Source of the DNA: Clostridium sp. 1001270J_160509_D11 | GTDB taxonomy: Bacteria > Bacillota > Clostridia > Peptostreptococcales > Peptostreptococcaceae | DNA length: 40,620 nucleotides | Reading direction: 5' to 3' | Assembly (NCBI RefSeq): GCF_015667935.1 | Contig: NZ_JADPET010000006.1 | Span: forward strand, 1-40,620 | In this document: positions 3,912 through 40,254 of the stretch, one piece after another | How positions within the stretch are numbered: position 1 is the first letter of the stretch | Layout: every line of letters begins with the position of its first letter | The notes under the pieces: generated by a model | Seen by the model: only the letters and a program-made list of their open reading frames with translations | What the model was told of the DNA's origin: nothing | The model's database searches: none | Translations under genes and position numbers: made by a program

Positions 3912-4090
3912 AATCAAAGTAAACCTGTAGCCCCCCACTTAGATAAGTGACAGTCTCATGTATCTTATACATGACCCCAGCATATACCTTCGCCAAGATA
4001 TAAACTTCGGCAAATCATCCTTTCAGTAATTATCTACACTTGCCAGCTACTATTACTTACTGATAATCATTGCGCCTCTACTTAGGTTAG
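3912..4090 (-). promoter_or_regulatory. Lysine riboswitch (L-box)
   Basis: Reading the minus strand, the conserved L-box elements appear in order: AGAGGCGC near 4080, AGTAGCTGG near 4050, CTGAAAGGATGATTTGCCGA at about 4027-4008, CTGGGGTCATG near 3975, and AGACTGTCAC near 3950. Helix P1 closes as AACCT..GTAG (5' side) with CTACAGGTT (3' side). These match the five-helix lysine aptamer known upstream of lysC and asd in Firmicutes and Thermotoga. In this family, lysine binding favours the downstream terminator. The site controls asd-dapA-dapB-dapD. Confidence 0.93.
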
Positions 4091-10810: not shown

Positions 10811-10850
10811 AAAAATCAGTTTACACCGTTTAGATGTAAACTGATTTTTT
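10811..10850 (+). terminator. Terminator after the M20 deacetylase
   Basis: Perfect 15-bp stem (10811-10825 with 10835-10849) running into T. It may work in both directions because the 5' side is A-rich. Confidence 0.9.
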
Positions 10851-10859
10851 AAATTCTAA

Positions 10860-10902
10860 GGAAATTATATATTATCTGGTTTGTGGATAATATATAATTT
10901 CC
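10860..10902. repeat. Perfect 17-bp AT-rich inverted repeat
   Basis: GGAAATTATATATTATC (10860-10876) is mirrored exactly at 10886-10902 around a 9-base loop. It has no T-run and follows the true terminator, so it is not simply a second terminator. A decayed relative is seen at 29700-29733, also just before a dispersed repeat. Confidence 0.8.
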
Positions 10903-10917
10903 AACCTATTCACTAAA

Positions 10918-11008
10918 GCAACGGAATCTTCGATTCGTTGGCGCTATGAGCGAAGCGAATTTTAAGCAACGGACGAAGTCGTTGGCGCTATGAGCGAAGC
11001 GAATTTTT
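10918..11008 (+). repeat. Dispersed hairpin repeat, copy 3 (two full units)
   Basis: Unit 3a (10918-10963) carries AATC-TTC-GATT, and unit 3b (10966-11008) carries GAC-GAA-GTC. Both have the same GC-GAA-GC mini-hairpin. This is the best-preserved copy. It fills the space between the convergent M20 gene and the small minus-strand gene that ends at 11009. Confidence 0.88.
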
Positions 11009-11197
11009 TTATCTAATGTCAAATAATAATCCTGCTTTATAATCGTCGTCGCTTATATCTGTTATTGAATCGATATTTCTTAGAATCATGTCCTTATGAT
11101 CATCACTCATTGGAATACCTTCTTCCTCTAATGATTGAATAAATTCTAAGTTTTTGATTAATCTTTCTACTGATTCGTTAAGTTTATCAAAATCCAT
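11009..11197 (-). CDS. Small acidic hypothetical protein
   Basis: I do not recognise this 62-residue product. It is acidic and helical in character (LNESVERLIKNLEFIQSLEEEG), with no signal peptide, membrane helix or cysteine. AGGAGGT lies 8 bases before the ATG, which argues strongly that it is translated. Its first 11 bases overlap the end of a 35-codon frame upstream, suggesting translational coupling. It ends exactly where the dispersed repeat stops. A Spo0E-like phosphatase was considered because of size, but its signature is absent. Confidence 0.6.
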   Translation of the reverse strand: MDFDKLNESVERLIKNLEFIQSLEEEGIPMSDDHKDMILRNIDSITDISDDDYKAGLLFDIR

Positions 11198-12499: not shown

Positions 12500-12566
12500 T
12501 TGACATCATATGACAAAAGTATTAGTATTATGTAATACTTGAACAAGGAAAATATTACCTCATAAT
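12500..12566 (+). promoter_or_regulatory. BASS-transporter promoter/operator shared with ilvD
   Basis: TTGACA (12500-12505) and TAGTAT (12523-12528) have a 17-base spacer. An inverted repeat ACATCATA (12503-12510)-N15-TATTATGT (12526-12533) spans the core promoter, and the block AGGAAAATATTACCT lies at 12546-12560 in the transcribed leader. The whole 67 bases align without gaps to the ilvD promoter (39374-39308, minus), about 54 of 67 identical by hand count. A second palindrome, AAGTATTA-N8-TAATACTT, overlaps the -10 here only. Confidence 0.75.
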
Positions 12567-12670: not shown

Positions 12671-13642
12671 ATGAAAACATTAGAAAAAATAAGCGACTTT
12701 GTAGGAAAGTATATGGCAATTATAGTATTAGTTATAGCTGCAATGGCGCTATTTGTACCTACTTCATTATCATGGGTTAAGACATCTTGGGTAAATTACT
12801 TATTAATGGTGGTTATGTTTGGTATGGGGCTTACGATAAAACCAGATGACTTTGTAATAGTATTTAAACAACCTAAAAATGTTATCATAGGATGCTTATC
12901 ACAATTTACAATAATGCCGTTATTAGCATTTGTATTGGGGAAATTATTTAAAATAGACGACGCATTATTAGTAGGTTTAGTATTAGTTGGTACATGCCCA
13001 GGGGGAACATCTTCTAATGTAATGAGTTTCTTAGCACAAGGAGACGTAGCATTATCTGTTGGAATGACTAGCGTTTCAACAATACTAGCACCAATATTAA
13101 CACCAGCAATAACATATTTATTATTAAGAACAACTGTAGATATAGATGCATTTAGTATGTTTTTCTCAATAATACAAGTTGTTATAGTACCAATAGGTCT
13201 TGGATTTATAGTTAACAAATTATTCTACAAATTTACTTCAAATGTAAAAAAGGTACTTCCATTAATATCAGTTACAGCTATAGTAATGATAGTTGCAGCA
13301 GTTGTATCAGCAAACTCAGCAAAAATACTTACAACAGGATTAGTAGTATTTGCAGTAGTTATACTACACAACTGTGGAGGATATGCACTTGGTTACACAA
13401 TAGCTAAGATGTTAGGATTAAATTTAAGTCAAAGAAAAACTATAGCTATAGAAGTTGGAATGCAAAACTCAGGTCTTGCATCAAGTTTAGCGACGACAGC
13501 TTTTCCAAATTTAGCAATGGCAACAGTACCAGGGGCAATCTTCAGTGTATGGCATAATATATCGGGGGCAATAATAGCGAGTATATTTTCTAAGATGAAA
13601 GATGATGAAACACAATCAAGTAATCGAGAAAGTGTAAGCTAA
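12671..13642 (+). CDS. BASS-family (bile acid:sodium symporter-like) transporter
   Basis: The 323-residue integral membrane protein has about ten hydrophobic segments. The family hallmarks are present: VVMFGMGLTIKPDDF near residues 47-61, VGTCPGGTSSNVMSFLA near 106-122 (first unwound helix), and EVGMQNSGLASSLA in the C-terminal half (second unwound helix). BASS proteins usually carry organic anions with sodium; bacterial members include the pantoate/pantothenate transporter PanS and Bacillus YocS. The substrate cannot be read from sequence. The promoter shared with ilvD points to a keto-acid or pantothenate-related substrate (inference). It is monocistronic with its own terminator. Confidence 0.88.
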   Translation: MKTLEKISDFVGKYMAIIVLVIAAMALFVPTSLSWVKTSWVNYLLMVVMFGMGLTIKPDDFVIVFKQPKNVIIGCLSQFTIMPLLAFVLGKLFKIDDALLVGLVLVGTCPGGTSSNVMSFLAQGDVALSVGMTSVSTILAPILTPAITYLLLRTTVDIDAFSMFFSIIQVVIVPIGLGFIVNKLFYKFTSNVKKVLPLISVTAIVMIVAAVVSANSAKILTTGLVVFAVVILHNCGGYALGYTIAKMLGLNLSQRKTIAIEVGMQNSGLASSLATTAFPNLAMATVPGAIFSVWHNISGAIIASIFSKMKDDETQSSNRESVS

Positions 13643-13687
13643 GATTCGGAATTATAATAGGAAAATTTAAGTGAGATATTTTTTATA

Positions 13688-13726
13688 TAAGATGGCTTTT
13701 ATCGATTTAGAAGTCATCTTATTTTT
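13688..13726 (+). terminator. Terminator after the BASS transporter
   Basis: 11-bp stem with one wobble pair (TAAGATGGCTT / AAGTCATCTTA) followed by TTTTT. Confidence 0.85.
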
Positions 13727-36450: not shown

Positions 36451-37389
36451 TTATATAAGCGATAAAGTTTTTAATATATAAATCCACATAAACATTGTTA
36501 TTATGCAGAAAAATGATGTAAAGACTATTATTTGGGCGGCTAAATCGCTATCTCCGTCCATTTGTTTCGCCATTTGGAAAGTCGATACACCTGTTGGCGC
36601 ACCGTAGATTATAGTTAGCGTAAGTAATGCAATTCCTCTAATTCCAAGAAATACGCTAAGTGGAATCATAATTAAAGGAACTAGGATTAACTTTGTAATA
36701 ACGATAAATATGGTTTCGTGTAGATACTTTTTTACATCAGAAAATGCGAATGATGCACCAAGGAGAATTAAACCAAGTGGAGTTGCCATTTTTGACACAT
36801 CTTCAACAGTTTCCATTATGCAAGTCGGAAGTTTTATCCCAATAAGAAGGAAGACAATACCTACAAAAGCACCAATTATAAGAGGATTTGTAACAACACC
36901 TTTAAGTATTTTTTTGATGTTGATTTGAGAGCCTCTAAATATTTCAAGTGATATAACAGCTAGCATATTGAAAAGAGGGACTATAACTGCGATTAACATA
37001 GCTGTAGTACCGACATTGCCATCACCATAGACAGAGGTTGCAACAGGAATACCAAAGATGACGAAGTTGCTACGAAATACCCCTTGAATCATAACACCAC
37101 GCTTTGGATTTTCTTTTTCGATTTTTGGGATAAAAAATAGTAATAATAAGAATAAAATAATCACGCCAGATGCAGCAAATAAAATAAGTTTGCCGTCAAA
37201 TACTGTCTCCAAATCTGTAGTATATACGTTGTAAAAAAGCAGCACAGGTAAAAATACTTTAAAGACGACTTTGTTCATAACATCTAGTGTATGTTGGTCA
37301 AAGATTTTTATGTATTTTAGAAAATAACCAAGAACCATCATTAAAAACAACGGAGCTACAACGTTAAAAGATAAGATTAAGTTTTCCAT
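36451..37389 (-). CDS. AEC (auxin efflux carrier) family transporter
   Basis: The 312-residue membrane protein has about ten helices in two five-helix halves, with the family pattern of a long N-terminal helix pair (VAPLFLMMVLGYFLKYIKIF), NKVVFKVFLPVLLFYN, and PLGLILLGASFAF in the middle. Bacterial AEC proteins carry organic acids such as malate or malonate, or lysine-like cations. It lies 72 bases downstream of ilvD behind a weak hairpin and probably shares its promoter, so a branched-chain keto acid or related anion is a reasonable guess. GGGGAG precedes the ATG. Confidence 0.85.
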   Translation of the reverse strand: MENLILSFNVVAPLFLMMVLGYFLKYIKIFDQHTLDVMNKVVFKVFLPVLLFYNVYTTDLETVFDGKLILFAASGVIILFLLLLFFIPKIEKENPKRGVMIQGVFRSNFVIFGIPVATSVYGDGNVGTTAMLIAVIVPLFNMLAVISLEIFRGSQINIKKILKGVVTNPLIIGAFVGIVFLLIGIKLPTCIMETVEDVSKMATPLGLILLGASFAFSDVKKYLHETIFIVITKLILVPLIMIPLSVFLGIRGIALLTLTIIYGAPTGVSTFQMAKQMDGDSDLAAQIIVFTSFFCIITMFMWIYILKTLSLI

Positions 37390-37413: not shown

Positions 37414-37437
37414 GGACTAAGTCAGATGACTTAGCCC
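37414..37437 (-). terminator. Weak hairpin between ilvD and the AEC transporter
   Basis: On the minus strand GGCTAAGTC pairs with GACTTAG-T-CC (one bulge), followed by TTTACTTTT. It is likely a leaky terminator that lowers expression of the downstream transporter. Confidence 0.55.
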
Positions 37438-37461: not shown

Positions 37462-39129
37462 TTATTTATTTGCTTTTAATACTGCGCCTTTGTCACCAGA
37501 TGTAACCATAGAGGCATATCTTGCTAAATAACCAGTAGTTACTTTTGGTTTTCTAGGAGTCCAAGCAGCTTTTCTTCTTGCTAATTCTTCATCTGAAACG
37601 ACAAAATCTAAAGTTTTTTCTTTTATGTTTATTTTTATTAGGTCTCCTTCTTCAACAAGAGCTATCGGTCCGCCAACAGCAGCTTCTGGAGAAACGTGTC
37701 CGATTGATGCCCCTCTAGATGCACCAGAGAAACGTCCGTCAGTTATAAGAGCTACACTAGAACCTAATCCCATACCAGCTATTGCAGAAGTAGGATTAAG
37801 CATTTCTCTCATACCTGGTCCACCTTTTGGTCCTTCATATCTTATTACAACAACGTCGCCAGCTACGATTTTGCCACCTTTTATAGCAGCTATAGCATCT
37901 TCTTCACAGTCGAATACTCTTGCTGGACCTTCGTGTACTAACATTTCAGGAACAACGGCAGATTGTTTAACTATACCAGAGTCAGGAGCTAAGTTTCCTT
38001 TAAGGACAGCTATACCACCAGTTTCTGAATATGGGTTTTCGATTGGTCTTATTGTTTCTGGATCTTTATTTACACAATTAGCAATATTTTCGCCTACAGT
38101 TTTCCCAGTAACAGTCATTATATCTAAGTTAAGTAAGTTTTTCTTAGTTAATTCGTTCATAACTGCATAAACTCCACCAGCTTCGTTTAAGTCTTCCATG
38201 TATGTGTATCCTGCAGGAGCTAAGTGGCAAAGGTTTGGAGTTTTTGAGCTTATTTCGTTAGCTATATCTACGTTTAAATCAACTCCAGCCTCGTTTGCTA
38301 TTGCTGGTAAGTGTAACATTGAGTTAGTAGAACAACCTAGCGCCATATCTACAGTTAGAGCATTTTGGAATGCTTTTTCAGTCATTATGTCTCTTGGTTT
38401 GATGTCTTTTTCTACTAATTCCATTACTTTCATACCTGCATGTTTAGCAAGTTTTATTCTTTCTGAATATACAGCAGGAATAGTTCCGTTTCCTTTAAGA
38501 CCCATTCCTAAAGCTTCAGTTAAGCAGTTCATACTGTTGGCAGTATACATACCAGAACATGAACCGCAAGTTGGACAAACTTTGCTTTCAAATTCTAAAA
38601 CATCATCTTCGTCCATAGTTCCAGCAGCGAAAGAACCTACTGCCTCAAACATACTTGATAGACTTCTTTTTTCGCCTTTAACACGACCAGCAAGCATAGG
38701 ACCACCGCTGACAAATACGGTTGGTATATTAACTCTAGCTGCTGCCATTAATAATCCAGGTACGTTTTTGTCACAGTTAGGAACCATAACTAATCCGTCG
38801 AATTGGTGAGCCATAGCCATACACTCAGTAGAGTCAGCTATTAAGTCTCTTGTAACTAGTGAATATTTCATACCGATATGTCCCATTGCTATACCGTCAC
38901 AAACTGCAATCGCAGGGAAGACAACAGGAGTTCCTCCTGCCATAGCTACACCAAGTTTAACTGCTTCTACGATTTTGTCTAAGTTCATGTGACCAGGAAC
39001 GATTTCGTTGTATGAACTTACTATACCTATTAAAGGTTTTCTCATTTCTTCTTCAGTATGCCCTAAAGCATTAAATAATGAACGATGGGGTGCTTGTTGC
39101 ATCCCTTTTCTTACTGCATCACTTCTCAT
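37462..39129 (-). CDS. ilvD: Dihydroxy-acid dehydratase
   Basis: The 555-residue product dehydrates dihydroxy-isovalerate and dihydroxy-methylvalerate to the keto acids for valine, leucine, isoleucine and pantothenate. Cluster-ligand regions are intact: [11 protein letters not shown] and [18 protein letters not shown]; also [21 protein letters not shown] near the C-terminus. The length is standard. AGGGGG precedes the ATG. It is separated here from other ilv genes. Its leader is ~210 bases, and its promoter is almost the same as that of the BASS transporter at 12500. Confidence 0.96.
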
Positions 39130-39307: not shown

Positions 39308-39374
39308 ATTATGAGGTATTATTTTCCTATAAATAATATAACATCATACTAATACATTTAACATATGATGTCAA
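39308..39374 (-). promoter_or_regulatory. ilvD promoter/operator shared with the BASS transporter
   Basis: On the minus strand TTGACA (39374-39369), 17 bases, TAGTAT (39351-39346); inverted repeat ACATCATA (39371-39364)-N15-TATGATGT (39348-39341), with perfect arms; block AGGAAAATAATACCTCATAA at 39328-39309. The spacing of every element is identical to that at 12500-12566. Confidence 0.75.
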
Positions 39375-39564
39375 TAATTACTGATAGAAAAATTTAAAAA
39401 TACTGAAAATATTGAATAATAAGAGAAAAATTAATAAAAAGTAATGCGAAATAAAAAATTATGTAGATATAAACTAAGATAATAATTAATACCTAGATAT
39501 ATAAATAAAAGCAATGTAACAAGTAATAGCATGGTATATAAATAAAAATCAAGGGGTGGAGAAT

Positions 39565-40254
39565 ATGGAATATAAAAAATCACAATCATTATCAGAGCAA
39601 GCGGCTGATGAAATACTAGATATGATAACAATAAAAAAACAATTTAAAGTGGGGGACAAATTGCCTAATGAAACAGAGCTATCATCTATTTTAAATGTGA
39701 GCAGGACGACATTGAGAGAGGCTATAAAAATGCTCGTCTTAAAAGATATAGTAGAAATTAAAAGAGGAAAAGGAACATTTGTAAAAAGTGACGAAGTAGA
39801 CAATTTCACACTTTCAGACTTAAAAGGACATTCATCTGATTTGGCGGATTTATTGGAAATGAGGCTGATTATAGAACCTATGGGTGCATATTATGCGACA
39901 AAGAGGGCAAGTGACAGCGAGATTGAAAAAATAATCGAATACGGCGAAATGGTAGAGCAAAAAATTCTAAATAACGAAGACAGAACAATAGCGGAACAAC
40001 TGTTTCACAACGCTATTGCAAAAGCAAGCGGTAACTCATTTATGAAAGAATTAGTACCTATTATCAGCAAGGCGATAAACGAAAGTGTCCAACTTTCAAA
40101 ACAATACGAAAAAGCAACAGAATTAACATTAAAAGATCACAAACTAATTATGGATTTTATGAAAGATAGAAATGCAGAAGGGGCAAAAACAGCGATGAAC
40201 CTCCATATCATCCACACAATCGATAGCTTTGGATTTAATGATAGATTAATATAG
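39565..40254 (+). CDS. FadR-type GntR transcriptional regulator
   Basis: The 229-residue regulator has an N-terminal winged helix (LPNETELSSILNVSRTTLRE, ~32-51, wing KRGKGTFV) and a C-terminal FCD ligand domain with metal-type residues (LEMRLIIEP, EQLFHNAIAKASGN, LKDHKLIMDFM, NLHIIHTI). FCD members usually sense organic acids. It is divergent from ilvD across a 435-base gap and is the nearest candidate to control ilvD or its own neighbours, though the ilvD inverted repeat is not a typical GntR site. ATG 39565 is preferred: AAGGGGTGG lies 5 bases upstream and overlaps the alternative GTG at 39556. Confidence 0.88.
   Translation: MEYKKSQSLSEQAADEILDMITIKKQFKVGDKLPNETELSSILNVSRTTLREAIKMLVLKDIVEIKRGKGTFVKSDEVDNFTLSDLKGHSSDLADLLEMRLIIEPMGAYYATKRASDSEIEKIIEYGEMVEQKILNNEDRTIAEQLFHNAIAKASGNSFMKELVPIISKAINESVQLSKQYEKATELTLKDHKLIMDFMKDRNAEGAKTAMNLHIIHTIDSFGFNDRLI

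Follow-up and report, generated by a model that had tools for sequence, protein, structure and literature searches.

Control of the ilv genes in Firmicutes usually rests with CodY and T-boxes. In E. coli, a single ilv gene, ilvC, is served by a divergently encoded local regulator, the LysR-type activator IlvY. FCD domains commonly bind small carboxylates via a histidine-held metal. Together with a helix-turn-helix domain, they occur in FadR-subfamily GntR repressors with local targets (i.e., LldR, PdhR, DgoR, and NanR), whose genes adjoin the target and whose operators lie over the promoter. NanR binds repeated half-sites as several dimers (PMC8012715). The canonical operator of the FadR type is TKGT-N2-3-ACMA, and other motifs are used by some FadR-type proteins (PMC4494728). 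PanS is described among the bacterial BASS transporters (PMC10645422).

The locus described here lies in a window of 40,620 nucleotides, which is the whole stretch of DNA that was analyzed. It resembles LldR, PdhR, DgoR, and NanR in the domains of the regulator, the adjoining regulator gene, and the operator over the promoter, while the targets differ, being a branched-chain amino-acid biosynthesis gene (ilvD) and a distant transporter, and the canonical TKGT-N3-ACMA operator is at best partly matched. With IlvY-ilvC it shares a divergent dedicated regulator that plausibly senses a pathway intermediate, while the protein is of the GntR type and the operator is placed for repression. The transporter belongs to the same BASS fold family as PanS and has a 51% relative after a panC-like gene; unlike PanS, it is linked to ilvD rather than to pan genes and scores 264 bits against a cut-off of 400. 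Unlike genes under T-box control, neither ilvD nor BASS had a T-box in an Rfam search, and unlike CodY-controlled ilv genes, the locus offers only weak CodY-like matches. Literature searches of open-access papers returned no GntR regulator of ilvD. The proposed small control circuit is apparently undescribed, and its general kind is familiar.

The duplicated promoter block and its palindrome

Two blocks of 67 bp stand upstream of the BASS gene (12500-12566, + strand) and upstream of ilvD (39308-39374, - strand), at the positions and on the strands given in the earlier note. They align without gaps, and the computed identity of 54 out of 67 positions is exactly the number that had been counted by hand. 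BLAST against the 2.98-Mb genome matched the two blocks with an E value of 2.1e-11 and found no third copy, the next match being a 21-base stretch with an E value of 0.01. The block is therefore not dispersed, and the reading as a plain repeat, which had been named in advance as a possible refutation, is ruled out. The degenerate pattern occurred twice in the window against 0.00 expected in shuffled sequence, which places the pair beyond chance, as had been argued.

Both blocks contain the claimed sigma-70-type promoter TTGACA-17-TAGTAT (12500-12528, +, in the BASS copy). The -35 element, spacer, and -10 element are overlaid by a palindrome with the consensus ACATNATA-N15-TATNATGT, whose arms lie over the -35 element and over the -10/start region. 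In the BASS copy (12503-12533, +) it reads ACATCATA-N15-TATTATGT, an exact match to the consensus, and in the ilvD copy (39341-39371, -) it reads ACATCATA-N15-TATGATGT; the one changed arm base reported at 12526-12533 was thus confirmed (TATGATGT for ilvD vs. TATTATGT for BASS). Exact palindromes were found at two sites in the whole genome, the two blocks only, with 0 sites for the reversed-pattern control. Among the relatives, G001 carries two (ilvD and BASS) and G002 and G003 carry one each (ilvD). The exact palindrome is also present at ilvD in the Terrisporobacter-type genomes G035 and G091, where palindrome and promoter sit between GntR and ilvD with a spacer that differs from that of Intestinibacter, and the rest of the family had approximately 0.2 matches per genome, close to the level of the reversed-pattern control. 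A lack of conservation 5' of orthologues, the second possible refutation, was likewise not borne out, as ilvD orthologues in two genera have kept the palindrome in their upstream regions. Searching 12 genomes with a 40-base sequence profile for a larger regulon gave no further site above noise.

In the alignment of the GntR-ilvD intergenic region from four Intestinibacter genomes, the core from TTGACA to TTATA, which is the first 38 bases of the ilvD block, was invariant in 38 of 38 positions. The rest of the region was invariant in 144 of 403 columns (36%), and the next longest invariant run, at the ribosome-binding site, measured 12 bases. Between the ilvD and BASS copies, the promoter half and the transcribed half were identical in 33/38 and 21/29 positions in this genome and in 34/38 and 15/29 positions in G001, respectively. 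As the promoter half was held to this extent while the transcribed half was not, selection appears, from these alignments, to act more on the promoter with its operator than on the AGGAAAATA part, whose similarity probably reflects shared ancestry more than any regulatory role. The AGGAAAATA-W-TACCTCATAAT block, which had been pointed out as transcribed, is present but falls in this less conserved half. A search of 61 relatives for the pattern AGGAAAATANTACCTCATAAT on its own gave mostly chance-level matches.

The divergent GntR gene as candidate regulator

While the regulator had been called unknown, a strong candidate was found in the FadR-subfamily GntR gene that is divergent to ilvD (39562-40254, +) and is proposed to read both palindromes. 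Its protein combines a winged helix-turn-helix (PF00392, 65.3 bits, cut-off 27) with a C-terminal FCD domain (PF07729, 73.4 bits, cut-off 24.3). The GntR alignment has three C-terminal histidines among its invariant columns, a feature also of metal-binding FCD domains. By sequence, the closest solved structure is 6AZ6, a GntR-family regulator without a name. The neighboring ilvD (37462-39129, -) encodes a dihydroxy-acid dehydratase of 555 aa that scores 784.8 bits with the equivalog model TIGR00110 (cut-off 618.15).

GntR adjoins ilvD in Intestinibacter (in three other genomes too), in Terrisporobacter G035 and G091, and in Clostridium. When 30 ilvD loci from the family were compared, the palindrome arms matched in 14 of 14 positions at all six loci with an adjoining GntR and in at most 11 of 14 at the remaining 24; the positives in this comparison come from two genera only and are not phylogenetically independent. 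In the close relative G016, which has ilvD and no detected GntR, the promoter is kept and the palindrome is degraded, and in G092, which has no close ilvD, GntR is reduced to a C-terminal fragment in the same neighborhood. In this distribution, the palindrome tracks GntR and not ilvD as such. The FadR-type operator TKGT-N2-3-ACMA was matched in at most 6 of 8 positions in this genome; in I. bartlettii and Terrisporobacter, 7 of 8 positions agreed close to the right arm.

Clostridium GntR orthologues with 54-57% identity adjoin an ilvD approximately 80% identical to that of the window, and an orthologue in Oscillospiraceae (49% identity) adjoins ilvC. At these loci, the promoter spacer contains (A)GACATCATACAA-type boxes, and five out of the six Clostridium-type ilvD promoters examined carry another copy as a direct repeat around -10, at a distance of exactly 20 bp. 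The exact 12-mer GACATCATACAA was counted nine times across six genomes, with seven occurrences at GntR, ilvD, or ilvC promoters. While the box differs from the Intestinibacter palindrome, the core ACATCAT is common to both. The Clostridium-type promoter pattern had no match in 391 genomes of the class, so that this sample held no carrier. More distant GntR paralogues (L137-L139, 38-39% identity) precede an IlvD/Edd-like dehydratase of 571-576 aa; at L137, a GntP permease, a KDPG aldolase, and a PfkB kinase come next, likely as a sugar-acid pathway.

We consider it likely, on these comparative grounds, that ilvD and BASS are controlled by a local GntR repressor through an operator-overlaid promoter. 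The repressor would be the FadR-type GntR protein whose gene diverges from ilvD. With the arms about two helical turns apart, over the -35 and the -10/start region, the bound protein would block RNA polymerase, and a repressor rather than an activator role is suggested because the operator overlies the polymerase contacts. Its release would follow the binding of a small carboxylate in the C-terminal FCD domain, with the IlvD substrate or product, 2,3-dihydroxyisovalerate or 2-ketoisovalerate, respectively, as the likeliest candidates. The second promoter copy would put the PanS-like BASS protein, as a putative mover of a related acid, under the same control.

The BASS and AEC transporters and the history of the block

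The BASS-family gene (12671-13642, +) lies 27 kb from ilvD and encodes 323 aa with a Pfam SBF domain (PF01758, 158.4 bits, cut-off 24.3). Since a terminator-like hairpin (13687-13722, +) stands 3' of the gene, it looks monocistronic. The pantoate or pantothenate substrate proposed earlier stays tentative: the protein of the window falls below the cut-off of the curated PanS equivalog NF047939 (263.9 bits, cut-off 400) and also below the curated cut-off of TIGR00841, although a 51% identical BASS gene of I. bartlettii G003 (L130) starts right behind a gene reading as panC, which supports a pantoate-type substrate for that BASS branch. Another BASS gene with 47% identity (L131, in G093 C125) is preceded by a T-box-leader-like sequence (AGGTGGTACCGCG, then a hairpin and a T-run), so that amino-acid control seems to be a recurrent feature of BASS genes.

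In G001, the same block precedes a BASS gene that is internally deleted, and in both I. bartlettii genomes (G002 and G003) the gene is missing from the corresponding site, which is occupied by an amidase, a gamma-glutamyltranspeptidase, and the downstream methyltransferase region. As the gene is broken in one relative and absent from the site in two others, the second target is, judging by these genomes, dispensable. In Terrisporobacter G035, three BASS pieces with 76-84% identity begin approximately 34 bp behind ilvD, and a shorter piece is retained in G091. The G035 wreck is an independent ilvD-BASS link, so that GntR, ilvD, and BASS are linked in more than one genus. Given the position of such remnants just behind ilvD, the two genes probably formed one operon in the past, with BASS after ilvD. 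If BASS moved away together with a copy of the promoter, this would account for block similarity that runs into the leader.

The same history could suffice without any specific regulator, the ilvD promoter simply having been copied as BASS left the ancestral operon. The similarity extending past the operator into the leader, the G035 remnants, and the presence or absence of the BASS cassette at one site between related species all agree with such common descent. However, the split is older than the divergence of G000 and G001, yet 33-34 of 38 positions of the promoter half are retained while flanks and leader have diverged, and the exact palindrome arms recur in Terrisporobacter around a different spacer, which makes descent alone an unlikely explanation.

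The AEC-family transporter gene (36451-37389, -; Pfam Mem_trans) comes after ilvD in all four Intestinibacter genomes. A stem-loop between the two genes (37414-37437, -), terminator-like in the window, is kept in these genomes with base changes in the stem. Since its T-run is poor, its role may be that of a partial terminator or that of a stabilizer of the 3' end. The small regulon suggested by the earlier note thus held in part: the joining of ilvD and BASS is well supported, because the palindrome is site-specific, non-dispersed, and conserved at ilvD orthologues in two genera, while the membership of AEC is doubtful because the conserved hairpin separates it from ilvD.

The source genome is that of an Intestinibacter-like gut bacterium, of a species other than I. 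bartlettii, with I. bartlettii DSM 16795 (G003) and I. bartlettii N19 (G002) as the closest named genomes. The assembly yielded no ilvC, but an absence of the gene from this genome was not accepted, as the ilvB contig stops at the place expected for ilvC, an assembly break. A lysine riboswitch aptamer (RF00168, 100 bits) at 3920-4088 (-) is the sole Rfam match in the window, and 10831-11016 is part of a dispersed repeat with dozens of matches in G001 and G002 at approximately 70-98% identity. Matches to ilvD with one in-frame TAG were seen in seven genomes of genus g17 (L074, L075, L078-L080, L082, and L087).

CodY, T-boxes, and a proposed local sensor

Since ilvD counts among the typical targets of CodY in Firmicutes, CodY or another unlinked factor might control both promoters through the block, leaving GntR a bystander. 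CodY control of ilvD has been described in S. aureus (PMC5794164). An exact CodY box, AATTTTCAGAAAATT, is present upstream of ilvD in G016, which lacks GntR, and a 13/15 match was found at the G003 ilvD. The best matches to the AATTTTCWGAAAATT box in the window, however, reach 11/15 at both genes, in AT-rich DNA and outside the palindrome, and the palindrome tracks GntR rather than ilvD. Such control in place of GntR is accordingly improbable, and CodY may act in addition to it.

A 5' hairpin or riboswitch common to both messages in the transcribed AGGAAAATA-TACCTCATAAT part is highly improbable. A hairpin is predicted in the G002 and G003 ilvD leaders, with some stem changes in other ilvD leaders preserving the pairing by inspection, but it is not shared by the BASS leader, the transcribed half is poorly kept in G001, and neither block matches an Rfam family.

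With a local GntR repressor as the preferred reading, the system could tentatively represent an undescribed clostridial sensor of dihydroxyisovalerate or ketoisovalerate, of the GntR/FadR type, with ilvD (in one lineage, ilvC) and, by promoter copying, BASS under its control, alongside or instead of CodY and T-boxes. In gut Clostridia, the regulation of valine, leucine, and pantothenate precursors is usually attributed to these last two. A repressor dedicated to a regulon of one or two genes would constitute a simple branched-chain-acid sensor and would hint at a substrate for an orphan BASS transporter. A gene leaving its operon can remain in the regulon by carrying a copy of the promoter along.
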